Positions 48,930-54,413 of a stretch of DNA of 58,309 nucleotides are shown here, piece after piece. Position 1 is the first letter of the stretch. Every line of letters starts with the position of its first letter. Position numbers and translations under genes: made by a program. Origin of the DNA: Candidatus Dormiibacterota bacterium (GTDB taxonomy: Bacteria; Chloroflexota; Dormibacteria; Dormibacterales; Dormibacteraceae); the NCBI GenBank assembly GCA_003151935.1, contig PLYZ01000078.1:1-58309 (forward strand), read 5' to 3'. A model generated the notes under the pieces. It was not told the origin of the DNA. It saw only the letters and a program-made list of their open reading frames with translations, and did no database searches.

Positions 48930-50693
48930 GTGGACCAGCCCAGCGCGGCGGTCGGTCTCCCCCAGCAGGTGAGCGTGCCAGGGGGCACGGGACCATCTGC
49001 GTCCGGGCGGAGCAAGCCCCGAACCGTGCGCATTCGGGGTCGCGAGTACCCCGTGATTCTGCCCAGCATCCGCGACCCGAGGCTGCACGTGGCCGCGGTG
49101 CTTCTGACCCTCCAGGTGCTTGGGCAGACCGTGCTCGGCTTCAGGCTGTCTGTGGCCCAGATCCTCGTCTGCCTGGCCGTGGGAGCGCTGATCGAGCTCG
49201 TGGTCGCCTTCTTCAAGGATCACCTCATCCTGTGGCCGGCCAGCGGGTTGCTCACCGGCAACAGCACGGCCTTCATCCTGAGGGTGCCTGGGACACTTCA
49301 CGGCCAGTGGTGGAGCCTTCACGGGATCGACATCTTCATCGGCGTCGTGGCGCTGGGGATGGCGACGAAGTACCTGATCCGGTGGCGCGGAAGGCACATC
49401 TTCAACCCCTCCAACGTCGCCCTGGTGATCGCGTTCATCGCGCTCGGCCCGCAACGCACCGAGCCGCTCGACCTGTGGTGGATACCCATGGGCCCGTGGA
49501 TGATCGTGACCTACGCCATCCTGATCGGCGGGGGCGTCTTGATCGGCTGGCGCCTCGGCCTCCTGGGCATGGAGCTGGCCTTCATGGCGTCTTTTGCGAT
49601 CTTCGTCGCCATCGCTCTGGCCCCGGTTCCCGACCACTGCATGGTCGCCAGCTGGCACCTGTCCCCGCTCTGCGGGAGCTCGCTCTGGCAGATCCTCGTG
49701 ACCTCTCCCGAAATCCTGATCTTCGCCCTGTTCATGATCCCCGACCCGAGAACCGTCCCGGAGGGCGCGCTGGCCCGAGTCATTTTCGGTGTGATCGTGG
49801 CGCTGTTCGCGGTTCTGCTGCTGGGTCCGACGACGCTGGAATTCTGGACCAAGACGGCGATCCTGGCCAGCCTGGTGCTGGCCTGTGCGCTGAGATTTGC
49901 GCTGACCAGCTTCCTCGCTTCGCTCCAAGCGGCGATGCACCGTGCCTCTTCCTTCTTGATCCCGGGCTGGAGGGTGCCGGCCGCCATCGCCGTCGCCTGC
50001 ATCCTCGTGGGGTGCCTGCCCGTAGCATCGGAGCTGTCCACCTACAGCCCTCAGCCGGTGGCCGGCCTCTCGGACGGCACGACTCCCGCCATCCCGCTCA
50101 TCGTGAGCTCCGGGCCGGCGCTCGCCGCGTGGCTGGACTCGTCGGCGAGCGATGCGCTGCCTCCGCCTGGGGATTCACAACCGGTCGCCAGCGCCGGGTC
50201 GGGGCGCGTCTGGGTGGTGCCCGCCCTGCCGGCGGTGGCGATTCCCTCGAATGTCAGCGACTTCAACTCCGCGATGACACAGCAGGTCGCGACACATATG
50301 GGCCACGATGCCGCGCTTGACCTCATCATCGAGGCCGAGGCTCGCCGAGCCCACGACACGAAATTGGCTGAGAGCGGCGCCGCCGCCGATGGGCTCGCGG
50401 AGTTCGTGGGCGTCATCAACCAGGACGTCGCTTCCGGCACATTCGTCTTGAAGGTCTACAAGTTCGACAGCGCCACGCTGAACCTGTTCCTGCCCAAGTT
50501 CGCCACTCAGGCCTCGAGGTTGATCGGCCTCACGCTAAACGGTACGGCCACCCTGATCACCAGGGAGCAGTCCGGGCGCGTGCTCTCGCAAACCACCTCG
50601 GCCTACTCGAAGAGCTGGAGCGTGGCGGCGGTCGCCCCGGACGGCCATCTGCTCATCGACCAGGACTACTCCGACCTCAGGCTCGCCCCCTGA
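48930..50693 (+). CDS. RnfD/NqrB-like membrane protein with C-terminal exported domain
   Basis: A 587-residue protein starting at GTG. The first 370 residues contain about 9-10 membrane helices with the RnfD/NqrB-like segments WPASGLLTGNSTAFILRVPG and GRHIFNPSNVALVIAFIALG; this variant, without the other Rnf/Nqr subunits, resembles UnbU-type proteins known near enediyne genes. After the last helix (AAIAVACILVGCLPVASEL) about 200 residues form a soluble, Ala/Ser-rich domain (VNQDVASGTFVLKVYKF-like; actual GVINQDVASGTFVLKVYKFD). It is divergent from an LppX-like lipoprotein. A role in flavin-linked electron transfer is possible but unproven. Confidence 0.75.
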   Translation: MDQPSAAVGLPQQVSVPGGTGPSASGRSKPRTVRIRGREYPVILPSIRDPRLHVAAVLLTLQVLGQTVLGFRLSVAQILVCLAVGALIELVVAFFKDHLILWPASGLLTGNSTAFILRVPGTLHGQWWSLHGIDIFIGVVALGMATKYLIRWRGRHIFNPSNVALVIAFIALGPQRTEPLDLWWIPMGPWMIVTYAILIGGGVLIGWRLGLLGMELAFMASFAIFVAIALAPVPDHCMVASWHLSPLCGSSLWQILVTSPEILIFALFMIPDPRTVPEGALARVIFGVIVALFAVLLLGPTTLEFWTKTAILASLVLACALRFALTSFLASLQAAMHRASSFLIPGWRVPAAIAVACILVGCLPVASELSTYSPQPVAGLSDGTTPAIPLIVSSGPALAAWLDSSASDALPPPGDSQPVASAGSGRVWVVPALPAVAIPSNVSDFNSAMTQQVATHMGHDAALDLIIEAEARRAHDTKLAESGAAADGLAEFVGVINQDVASGTFVLKVYKFDSATLNLFLPKFATQASRLIGLTLNGTATLITREQSGRVLSQTTSAYSKSWSVAAVAPDGHLLIDQDYSDLRLAP

Positions 50694-50699
50694 AGCTGA

Positions 50700-51287
50700 T
50701 TACCGGTCGCGCGTGATCGCGCCGGGTATGCCGGTCGGCTCGTAGATGGCCGGCGGCTCGATGCCGAATGTGTCGGCCAGGCGGACGAACAGGCTGAACA
50801 GCGCCGCCACGTAAGCCGCCTCCGCGATCTGCTCATCGGTCCAGCCTGCTTCGCGCAGGCCCTCGACCTGCTCGTCGGTGACGCGGTGGGCAGCGCGCGC
50901 TATGGTGCCAGCGAATTCCAGGAGCAGGTGCTCGCGGGGAGGCAGTCCAGCCGCCTCGAGATCACCGTTGCGGAGAGCTTCCGCCGCCACTTCGAACTCT
51001 GCGCCCTGCAACTGCAGGAACCACGTGTGAGAGCTGAGTCAATACCTGCAGCGGTTGATCGCCGAGACGTACGAGGCGATCATCTCGTGCTGGGCGCGGG
51101 TGAGCGCCCCGTCGGTGAAGTGCATGCGCGAGGCAGCCTGGATGGCGGCCAGGAAATCAGGCCGCAGGCTCATGGTCTGGAGGATCGGCGCCACGATGCC
51201 GATCGGGCTCTGCGCCTTTGCGGTCGCGTAAACCTCGGCCAGCGGCCCCGTGGCCTCTGACTCGTCGACCATCTTGATGCGCGCCAC
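50700..51287 (-). CDS. AhpD-like (carboxymuconolactone-decarboxylase family) protein with in-frame TGA, probable selenoprotein
   Basis: Read as one frame with a single internal TGA (51041-51039, codon 83) this gives 195 residues of the AhpD/CMD peroxidase-related family. The TGA falls in INRCRY-U-LSSHTWFL, exactly where the family has the second cysteine of C-x-x-C-x-x-x-H. The remaining frame (GAEFEVAAEALRNGDLEAAG; LLEFAGTIARAAHRVTDEQV; AAYVAALFSLFVRLADTFGI) is fully family-like, with no decay. A hairpin begins at the right distance for a bacterial SECIS (see 51005-51036). AhpD proteins reduce peroxides or keep thiol partners reduced. It starts at GTG 30 bases after the truncated-globin gene. 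Alternative: a nonsense mutation. Confidence 0.75.
51005..51036 (-). promoter_or_regulatory. Candidate bacterial SECIS hairpin
   Basis: Downstream of the in-frame UGA the mRNA can form CCUGC-AGUU-GCAGG (51018-51005), its loop starting 26 bases after the UGA with a G at loop position 2. A lower helix AGCUCU with AGAGUU (just outside) may extend it across an internal loop. Distance and loop G fit the described bacterial SECIS consensus; folding was done by eye. Confidence 0.55.
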
Positions 51288-51877: not shown

Positions 51878-54163
51878 TTAGCGACGCCTGCGAGCGCTCG
51901 AAACCTCATCGTCGGCGCGCTGGATCAGATCATCTGCCAAGTCGCCGGCCTGGAGCCGGGCAAGACCGACCGTGATGGAGGCGCCGGAGCGACCTGCGGC
52001 CAACATCGTGCTGACGGCCTCAAAGCGTCGACGCGCGTTTTCGACGGCGATGCCTGGCAGCACGCATACGAACTCATCGCCGCCGACGCGAGTGATCACG
52101 TCGTAGGAGCGCAAGCAGGTTCGCAGGGAGTCGGCGACGGCGATGAGCAGCGCGTCCCCCGCGGCATGACCTCTGGTGTCGTTCGTGGCTTTGAGCCCGT
52201 CTACGTCGACGTAAGCAGCTACGAGCTCTCCGCTGACGCGCTGGGCTCGATTGATCTCCCGCACAATGGCAGCCAGCCCGGCGCCGCGGCGGCTCACTCC
52301 TGTCAATTCATCGGTCCCGGAGTCTTCACGGTCCTTGGCGGCCTGCGCGCGATCTTCCGCTGCAATCTGGCGGTCGTGGCTGCCTTGTGCGCGATCGTCC
52401 GCTGCAACCTTGCGGTCGTTGACGGCCCGTACGCGGCTGTCCGCGGCATCAGCGCGTTCCGAGGCGGCGCGGGCTCCAGCGTCCTCCGCGCGCTGACGGT
52501 TGCTCGCCGCGCGATCCCCTGCAGTTCGATCGGACTCACCGGCCGCGTCGTCACGCGCTTCGGCCTCTCGGTCACGCAGCCCTGCCGCGACGTCACGGTC
52601 CCGCGCGGCCAGCCCAGCCTCGCGACGGCGCACGGCCGTCAGCTCGTCAGTCCCGGAATCCTCGCGGTCCTTCGCCGCCTGTGCGCGATCGTCCGCCGCA
52701 ACTTTGCGGTCGTTGATGGCTCGCACGCGGCTATCCGCGGCATCGGCGCGCCCCGAGTCGGCTCGAGCGCCTTCGTCTGCCGCGCGCTGACGGTTGCTGG
52801 CCGCGCTATCCCCTGCGCTTCGGTCGCGATCACCGGCCGCGTCGTCACGCGCCTCGGCCTCTCGGTCACGCAACCCCGCCGCGACGTCGCGGTCCCGCGC
52901 AGCGAGCCCGGCCTCCCGACGGCGTACCGCCGTCAACTCGTCCGTCCCGGAATCCTCGCGGTCCTTCGCCGCCTGGGCGCGATCGTCTGCTGCAACTTTG
53001 CGGTCGTTAATGGCTCGTTCGCGGCTGTCCGCGGCATCAGCGCGGCCCGAGTCGGCCCGGGCGCCCTCGTCTGCCGCGCGCCGGCGATTGCTCGCCGCGC
53101 GATCCCCGGCGGTCCGGTCGAACTCACCGGCCGCGTCGTCACGCGCTTCGGCTTCTCGGTCACGCTGCTCGGCGGCGAGGTCACGCGCCCGCGCAGCGAG
53201 CCCCGAAGTCTCGCGATCCTTCGCCGCCTGCGCGCGATCTTCGGCTGCAAGTCTGCGGTCGTTGATGGCCTGGGCACGGTAATCCGCAGCTTCAGCTCGC
53301 CCCGAGGCGGCCTGAGCACCTTCATCTGCCGCGCGCCGGCGATTGCTCGCGGCACGATCTCCTTCAGTTCGGTCAAGATCACCGGCTGCGTCATCACGAG
53401 CTTCGGCCTCTCGGTCACGCAGCCCGGCCGCGACATCCCGGTCCTGCGCAGCCAGCCCCGCGACCCGACGGCGCGCGCCGGTCAGCTCGTCGGTCCCGGA
53501 ATCTTCGCGATCCTTGGCGGCCTGGGCACGATCTTCGGCCGCCACCTTGCGGTCCTGGATGGCCTGGGCGCGGTTGTCCGCAGCCCCAGCGCGCCGCGAG
53601 GCGGCCTGGTCACGTTCGTCTGCCGCATGCTGCCGGTCGGTCGCCGCGCGATCTCCTGCGGTTCGGTCAAGATCGCCGGCCGCGTCATCGCGCGCCTTGG
53701 CCTCTCGGTCGCGCAGCCCGGCCGCGACGTCACGGTCCTGCGCAGCAAGGCCGGCCTCCCGGCGGCGCACTCCTGTCAGCTCGTCGGCCCCGGAATCTTC
53801 GCGATCCTTGGCGGCCTGGGCGCGATCCTCGGCCGCAACCTTGCGGTCATTGACAGCCTGGGCGCGGTTATCCGCGGCCTCAGTGCGACCCCATGGAGGT
53901 CTGGTACCGTCGCCTGCCGCCCGTTCACTCTCACTCGCCGCGCGATCCCCTGCGGTTCGGTCGAGGTTTCCCGCCGCGTCATCACGCGCTTCCGCCTCTC
54001 GGTCACGCTGCTCCGCCTCTCGGTCACGCACGTCCGCAGCCAGATCGCGGTCGCGCCCTTCTAAGTCGCGCTCGCCTGCCTTTGCCAGGGCGTCATGGCC
54101 TTCATCAGCTCCACTGGGGTCCTGATCTGGGAGGGTTGTGCCGCGCGTCCGTCCTTCGGGCAT
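51878..54163 (-). CDS. Diguanylate cyclase with long tandem-repeat N-terminus
   Basis: A 761-residue soluble protein. About the last 150 residues are a GGDEF domain that makes c-di-GMP: AYVDVDGLKATNDTRGHAAG, active site RVGGDEFVCVLPG, and an inhibitory-site RSYD exactly five residues before GGDEF. Residues about 50-600 are tandem repeats of roughly 95 residues, extremely rich in Arg, Asp and Ala, likely coiled coil, with units such as RDREAEARDDAAG, DRTAGDRAAS, DRKVAADDRAQAAKDREDSG and DELTxVRRR. Four repeats carry DELT(G/A)xRRR, the motif that also opens the real GGDEF domain (DELTGVSRRG). No membrane helix is seen. ATG 54163 is chosen; the frame is open upstream through tRNA-His. Confidence 0.85.
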   Translation of the reverse strand: MPEGRTRGTTLPDQDPSGADEGHDALAKAGERDLEGRDRDLAADVRDREAEQRDREAEARDDAAGNLDRTAGDRAASESERAAGDGTRPPWGRTEAADNRAQAVNDRKVAAEDRAQAAKDREDSGADELTGVRRREAGLAAQDRDVAAGLRDREAKARDDAAGDLDRTAGDRAATDRQHAADERDQAASRRAGAADNRAQAIQDRKVAAEDRAQAAKDREDSGTDELTGARRRVAGLAAQDRDVAAGLRDREAEARDDAAGDLDRTEGDRAASNRRRAADEGAQAASGRAEAADYRAQAINDRRLAAEDRAQAAKDRETSGLAARARDLAAEQRDREAEARDDAAGEFDRTAGDRAASNRRRAADEGARADSGRADAADSRERAINDRKVAADDRAQAAKDREDSGTDELTAVRRREAGLAARDRDVAAGLRDREAEARDDAAGDRDRSAGDSAASNRQRAADEGARADSGRADAADSRVRAINDRKVAADDRAQAAKDREDSGTDELTAVRRREAGLAARDRDVAAGLRDREAEARDDAAGESDRTAGDRAASNRQRAEDAGARAASERADAADSRVRAVNDRKVAADDRAQGSHDRQIAAEDRAQAAKDREDSGTDELTGVSRRGAGLAAIVREINRAQRVSGELVAAYVDVDGLKATNDTRGHAAGDALLIAVADSLRTCLRSYDVITRVGGDEFVCVLPGIAVENARRRFEAVSTMLAAGRSGASITVGLARLQAGDLADDLIQRADDEVSSARRRR
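52290..54000 (-). repeat. Tandem coding repeats in the diguanylate cyclase gene
   Basis: Several imperfect copies of a unit of about 285 bases encode the Arg/Asp/Ala-rich repeats. Neighbouring copies are nearly identical at protein level (for example the two DSGTDELTAVRRREAGLAAR copies), which points to recent unequal recombination. One central copy is shortened and lacks the DELT motif (RETSGLAARARDLAAEQRDR). Confidence 0.8.
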
Positions 54164-54259
54164 ATAAGTGGGTCCCGGCGCTGGCAGCGCGAATGGCCCT
54201 CCAACATCGGACCTTCGCCATAACAATTGCAGCAACCGTCGCGGGAAATCGGAGGAAAT

Positions 54260-54337
54260 TGGGGTGGCTAGCGGGATTTGAACCCGCGACAGCCAGATCC
54301 ACAATCTGGTGCTCTGCCATGCTGAGCTATAGCCACC
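54260..54337 (-). tRNA. tRNA-His (GTG)
   Basis: Acceptor arms GTGGCTA/TAGCCAC with the extra G at -1 opposite discriminator C, as required for tRNA-His. Anticodon stem CCAGA/TCTGG encloses TTGTGGA (anticodon GTG); T arm GCGGGTTCAAATCCCGC. CCA is encoded (54262-54260). Confidence 0.96.
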
Positions 54338-54413
54338 ACGGTGCGGGCCAGGAGCCGCCGGCTCTGTAGGAATCACGATTCTACCCGCCCCGGTTGTCAG
54401 AGAATGGAGGGCG

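Follow-up and report, generated by a model that had tools for sequence, protein, structure and literature searches.

Enzymes of the AhpD fold use the second Cys of a CxxC motif and a His four residues further on in peroxide reduction, together with a Glu-based proton relay. In mycobacterial AhpD, a Glu lies 12 residues ahead of the first Cys, the same spacing as in the gene described here. AhpD-like selenoproteins with a CxxU motif were found in the Sargasso Sea survey of 2005, which gave 27 sequences under COG2128 (PMC1088965), and in the Global Ocean Sampling survey of 2008, which gave 299 sequences named "AhpD-like 1" (PMC2398784); the family is also entered in a 2026 review as "AhpD-like protein, TIGR01926, CxxU" (PMC13188914). 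Another AhpD-related family, NF041238 (AhpD_rel_CFYUT), likewise carries selenocysteine (Sec), in a C-x-Y-U motif. In the present study, we analyzed the window, a stretch of 58,309 nucleotides from Candidatus Dormibacterota, and found an ahpD-like gene in which an in-frame TGA at the active site is almost certainly read as Sec. The features of the locus are listed in Table 1.

Table 1. Features of the ahpD-like locus, with positions in the window.
Feature	Position	Strand	Details and basis
ahpD-like selenoprotein gene (TIGR01926/CMD)	51287–50700	minus	195 codons, GTG start, TAA stop; frame, profile matches and homologues
In-frame TGA, codon 83, predicted Sec, second position of CxxU in C-x-x-U-x-x-x-H	51041–51039	minus	all 43 distinct close homologues carry TGA; distant homologues carry TGA or Cys
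Predicted bacterial SECIS hairpin UCCUGC-AGUU-GCAGGG	51019–51004 (loop 51013–51010)	minus	conserved at the nucleotide level, with one stem pair that switches from C-G to U-A on both sides together
Truncated haemoglobin gene (PF01152)	51770–51318	minus	30 nt upstream of the ahpD-like gene, same strand

The minus-strand frame was re-read, and its coordinates, the CRY-U-LSSH motif and the 112 codons after the TGA agreed with the preliminary description. Exactly one internal stop was present in the frame, the TGA at codon 83, which, as had been claimed, stands where CxxCxxxH has its second Cys. With this TGA read as Sec, the surrounding residues are HEMIASYVSAINRCRYULSSHTWFLQLQG, and the peptide that follows it is LSSHTWFLQLQG. 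The read-through product scored 52.5 bits against CMD (PF02627; cut-off 23) and 98.7 bits against TIGR01926 (peroxid_rel; cut-off 81.8), the latter a cut-off that some close relatives miss slightly, and it carried the active-site pattern E-x(11)-C-x-x-[CU]-x-x-x-H. The scores were 30.7 bits against the AhpD orthologue profile TIGR00777 (cut-off 191.95) and 78.1 bits against NF041238 (cut-off 175), both far below the cut-offs. By these profile matches, the product is an AhpD-like protein of the peroxidase-related subfamily TIGR01926 and not an AhpD orthologue, so the earlier name "AhpD" holds as a likeness but not as a statement of orthology. Mycobacterium tuberculosis AhpD (TIGR00777) shares the CxxCxxxH active site and differs in having Cys instead of Sec. 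The closest solved relatives were the peroxidase-related or antioxidant defence proteins of PDB entries 2PRR, 2OYO, 2PFX and 3C1L (E-values from 4e-23 to 9e-14); in the two with alignments shown, 2PRR (CLYC) and 3C1L (CYYC), the residue at the site is Cys. On the plus strand, a 587-aa membrane-protein-like ORF (48930–50693) is convergent with the ahpD-like gene and had no Pfam or NCBIfam match at an E-value of 0.001.

As had been anticipated, gene calling reports this gene as two truncated proteins: the table-11 ORF listing gave pieces of 82 aa (51287–51039) and 103 aa (51011–50700). Both have start codons, as would be expected if the TGA were a true stop, whether the locus was a pseudogene, encoded two short proteins separately or reflected a fault in the assembly. 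Homologues were collected by scanning the genome contigs, which gave 36 loci, and by scanning 200 relatives together with the own genome, in which 46 genomes matched. After duplicates were removed, 43 distinct genes were left including our own, to which the other 42 were 49–90% identical at the protein level. Their hosts were Dormibacterota, other Chloroflexota, and metagenome-assembled genomes labelled Acidobacteria, Proteobacteria and Planctomycetota. Every one of the 43 genes carried TGA at the position of codon 83. Of the more distant TIGR01926 members read in the relatives, eight had TGA at the same site and 18 had Cys, and nothing else was found there. Glu68, Cys80, Cys/Sec83 and His87 were invariant in 73/73 rows of the alignment. 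In a tree built from these rows, 55 with Sec and 18 with Cys, at least four changes between the two states were required; its deep order is unsure because of long branches. Among Dormibacterota relatives, another TIGR01926-like gene with one TGA, which is not the studied orthologue, was observed in several cases, such as G016:C205, G020:C98, G021:C10, G023:C92 and G034:C373.

The selective constraint on the two sides of the TGA was compared against seven relatives. The dN/dS ratio was 0.08–0.27 upstream and 0.11–0.26 downstream, indicating that purifying selection acts equally on the two parts of the frame, in agreement with the earlier claim that the downstream part was undecayed. One downstream value (L054; 1.39 at 43% nucleotide identity) was set aside; since the protein is 90% identical, the ungapped comparison was judged to be out of register, presumably through an in-frame indel. 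A true stop would also cut CxxUxxxH between its Cys and its His. The same TGA in 43 distinct genes and eight more distant ones, together with equal selection on both sides of it, refuted the true-stop reading, which we rejected as having next to no chance of being correct.

The source assembly comprises 2.94 Mb and is 99.6% complete, and a search of it recovered all four genes of the Sec machinery, selA, selB, selC and selD. SelA was matched on contig C47 with 404 bits, with the C-terminal domain of SelB close downstream on the same strand, and SelD on C87 with 357 bits. The tRNA-Sec on C85 exceeded the gathering score of 47 with 69.7 bits and was called tRNA-SeC with anticodon TCA by ARAGORN. 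Near the tRNA-Sec gene, a thioredoxin gene (L004:590-600) contains NN within its WCGPC codons and is off frame by two, which is probably an assembly gap or masking and not biology. Two textbook selenoprotein genes serve as positive controls in the same genome. One is selD itself (L013:1531), with an in-frame TGA at the classical Sec site (SHGAGUACKLSP); the other is a formate dehydrogenase-like gene (L114, a 650-codon open frame), in which TGA stands at the classical site (CNRTUHAPS) and a hairpin whose loop is GGU comes after it. SelA was found in 153 of the 201 genomes (relatives and own), so its co-occurrence with the TGA-bearing gene was as expected but gave weak support. Six relatives had a TGA-bearing gene of this kind without a SelA match, five of them 59–80% complete. 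All of the six except the 59%-complete one showed a match to tRNA-Sec or to SelB, the SelB-like matches being below the curated cut-off.

The frame would be equally open if a general change of the genetic code, or a suppressor tRNA, made UGA a codon for some other amino acid (Trp or Cys). Ordinary genes in this genome end in TGA, selA among them, which bears out the earlier statement that TGA is a normal stop elsewhere. The site is Cys and never Trp in homologues, tRNA-Sec with anticodon TCA is present alongside SelA, SelB and SelD, and a fixed hairpin sequence follows the UGA. On these grounds, we rejected a general reassignment of TGA and regard decoding as another amino acid as very improbable. 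The preliminary description had named the results that would overturn a selenoprotein (a genome lacking selA, selB or selC, close relatives with a sense codon other than Cys at the site, or decay after it), and none of these was observed.

Bacterial SECIS elements are described as having a stem of 4–16 bp and a loop of 3–9 nt at 16–37 nt from the UGA, with a G within the first two loop positions and a minimum free energy of -7.5 kcal/mol or lower (PMC13188914). The hairpin after codon 83 has a 6-bp stem, the loop AGUU with G at position 2, a spacer of 25 nt (the loop starts at nt +26 past the UGA) and a free energy of -10.4 kcal/mol in a 39-nt piece. Thus, the earlier claim of a hairpin with its loop at +26 that fits the bacterial rule was correct, but the hairpin was unconvincing when judged from its own sequence. 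It was no more stable than shuffled sequences (z = +1.37), for which reason single-sequence folding was not used as evidence, and 44% of random synonymous recodings gave a rule-fitting hairpin of at least 6 bp. An Rfam scan of the region at E-values up to 10 returned no match.

Comparison among the 43 genes was more informative. The core U-G-C-A-G-U-U-G-C-A was identical in all of them, and the Leu codon at +10 was always TTG, a codon used for 77 of 714 Leu residues (11%) elsewhere in these genes. At the pair 25–36, 37 genes had C-G and six had U-A; both sides switched jointly, CTG becoming TTG and CAG becoming CAA, and both codon changes are synonymous. In the tree, L079 stands apart from the other five U-A genes, the L040–L044 group, so that the six do not represent six independent events. 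A search of the own genome for copies with up to two mismatches found the hairpin in this gene only, indicating that the exact hairpin is not common to the other selenoprotein genes. In the distant Sec homologues, hairpin positions were determined by simple perfect-stem matching. The best-fitting hairpin lay at 17 nt in five of the eight (L098, L102, L103, L107 and L109; ACGGAGAG...CTCCGT type), although L103 also permits a longer one at 28 nt. In L097 the hairpin was again at 17 nt, its stem being weaker, and L104 and L105 had theirs at 28–29 nt. Most of the distant relatives therefore have their loop at about 17 nt from the UGA, about 8 nt nearer to it than the 25 nt of the close group, and the hairpin seems to have shifted position within the TIGR01926 family.

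Taken together, the sequence evidence leaves us highly confident that a single gene at this locus encodes an AhpD-like (TIGR01926) thiol/selenol oxidoreductase, with UGA codon 83 decoded as Sec, a function most likely in hydroperoxide or disulfide reduction, and probable co-expression with a globin. In the proposed mechanism, SelA and SelD would make Sec-tRNA, and SelB would recognize the hairpin with its loop 25 nt downstream of the UGA and deliver tRNA-Sec, placing Sec as the second residue of CxxC. With Sec in this place, a faster nucleophile (the selenolate) and a selenenylsulfide intermediate between Cys80 and Sec83 would be expected, and it is through this intermediate that hydroperoxides, or a disulfide partner, would most likely be reduced. 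Glu68 and His87 would form the proton relay of the AhpD fold.

Among solved structures, the product of the upstream truncated haemoglobin gene is closest to bacterial truncated haemoglobins and globins. A homologous globin gene lies upstream on the same strand in 20 of 23 close loci from the clade of the window (L017–L038 and L049), within 100 nt in 16; one of the three loci lacking it has merely 26 nt of upstream sequence. None of 13 loci outside the clade has the globin neighbour, two of these holding little upstream sequence. From this gene order, the truncated haemoglobin gene is a probable operon partner, co-expressed with the ahpD-like gene. Also on the minus strand, an 832-aa ORF (51878–54376) has a C-terminal GGDEF domain (PF00990; 87.8 bits; residues 688–830) preceded by a long stretch of Arg/Asp/Ala-rich tandem repeats, with a DNA period of 294 bp over about 52336–54037.

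The globin also bears on the function of the enzyme. Sec might be inserted while the physiological task is not peroxide reduction but that of a disulfide or selenenylsulfide reductase, or one in which the enzyme and the truncated haemoglobin act jointly on reactive nitrogen species; this alternative competes with the functional part of the preferred explanation only. To our knowledge, TIGR01926 has no established substrate, and this favours the alternative, as does the globin gene that immediately precedes the ahpD-like gene here and in most close relatives. Against it, the globin neighbour is missing in relatives outside the Dormibacterota clade. We regard a non-peroxide task as a real possibility, though somewhat short of an even chance. 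More tentatively still, the truncated haemoglobin and the AhpD-like selenoenzyme of Dormibacterota might form a conserved two-gene redox unit of haem and selenium for peroxide or reactive-nitrogen detoxification. By title and abstract, the open-access literature held no report of a truncated haemoglobin paired with AhpD or with a selenoprotein.

Compared with known systems, the gene resembles the AhpD-like TIGR01926/COG2128 CxxU family in exceeding the cut-off of the same profile, in the position of CxxU and in having a bacterial SECIS just past the UGA. It differs in its host, Candidatus Dormibacterota from soil, in the motif tail ULSSHxWFLQLQ and in the globin gene upstream. No joint report of Dormibacterota and selenocysteine was found in the open-access literature. 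The TIGR01926 CxxU selenoproteins have been known since 2005, and what is new, and well supported, is a member in Candidatus Dormibacterota; because selenium forms of the family were already known, the gene is unsurprising, though a good new example. Its modest additions are the adjacent truncated haemoglobin gene in most close relatives, a lead towards the substrate of the subfamily, and the displaced SECIS loop. This hairpin, near-frozen across phyla and placed unlike that of most distant members, provides a natural test of bacterial SECIS mobility. The gene shows that Sec use is firmly rooted in a soil lineage that is little studied and largely uncultured, and that routine gene finding would break this antioxidant gene into two pieces across the whole of that lineage.
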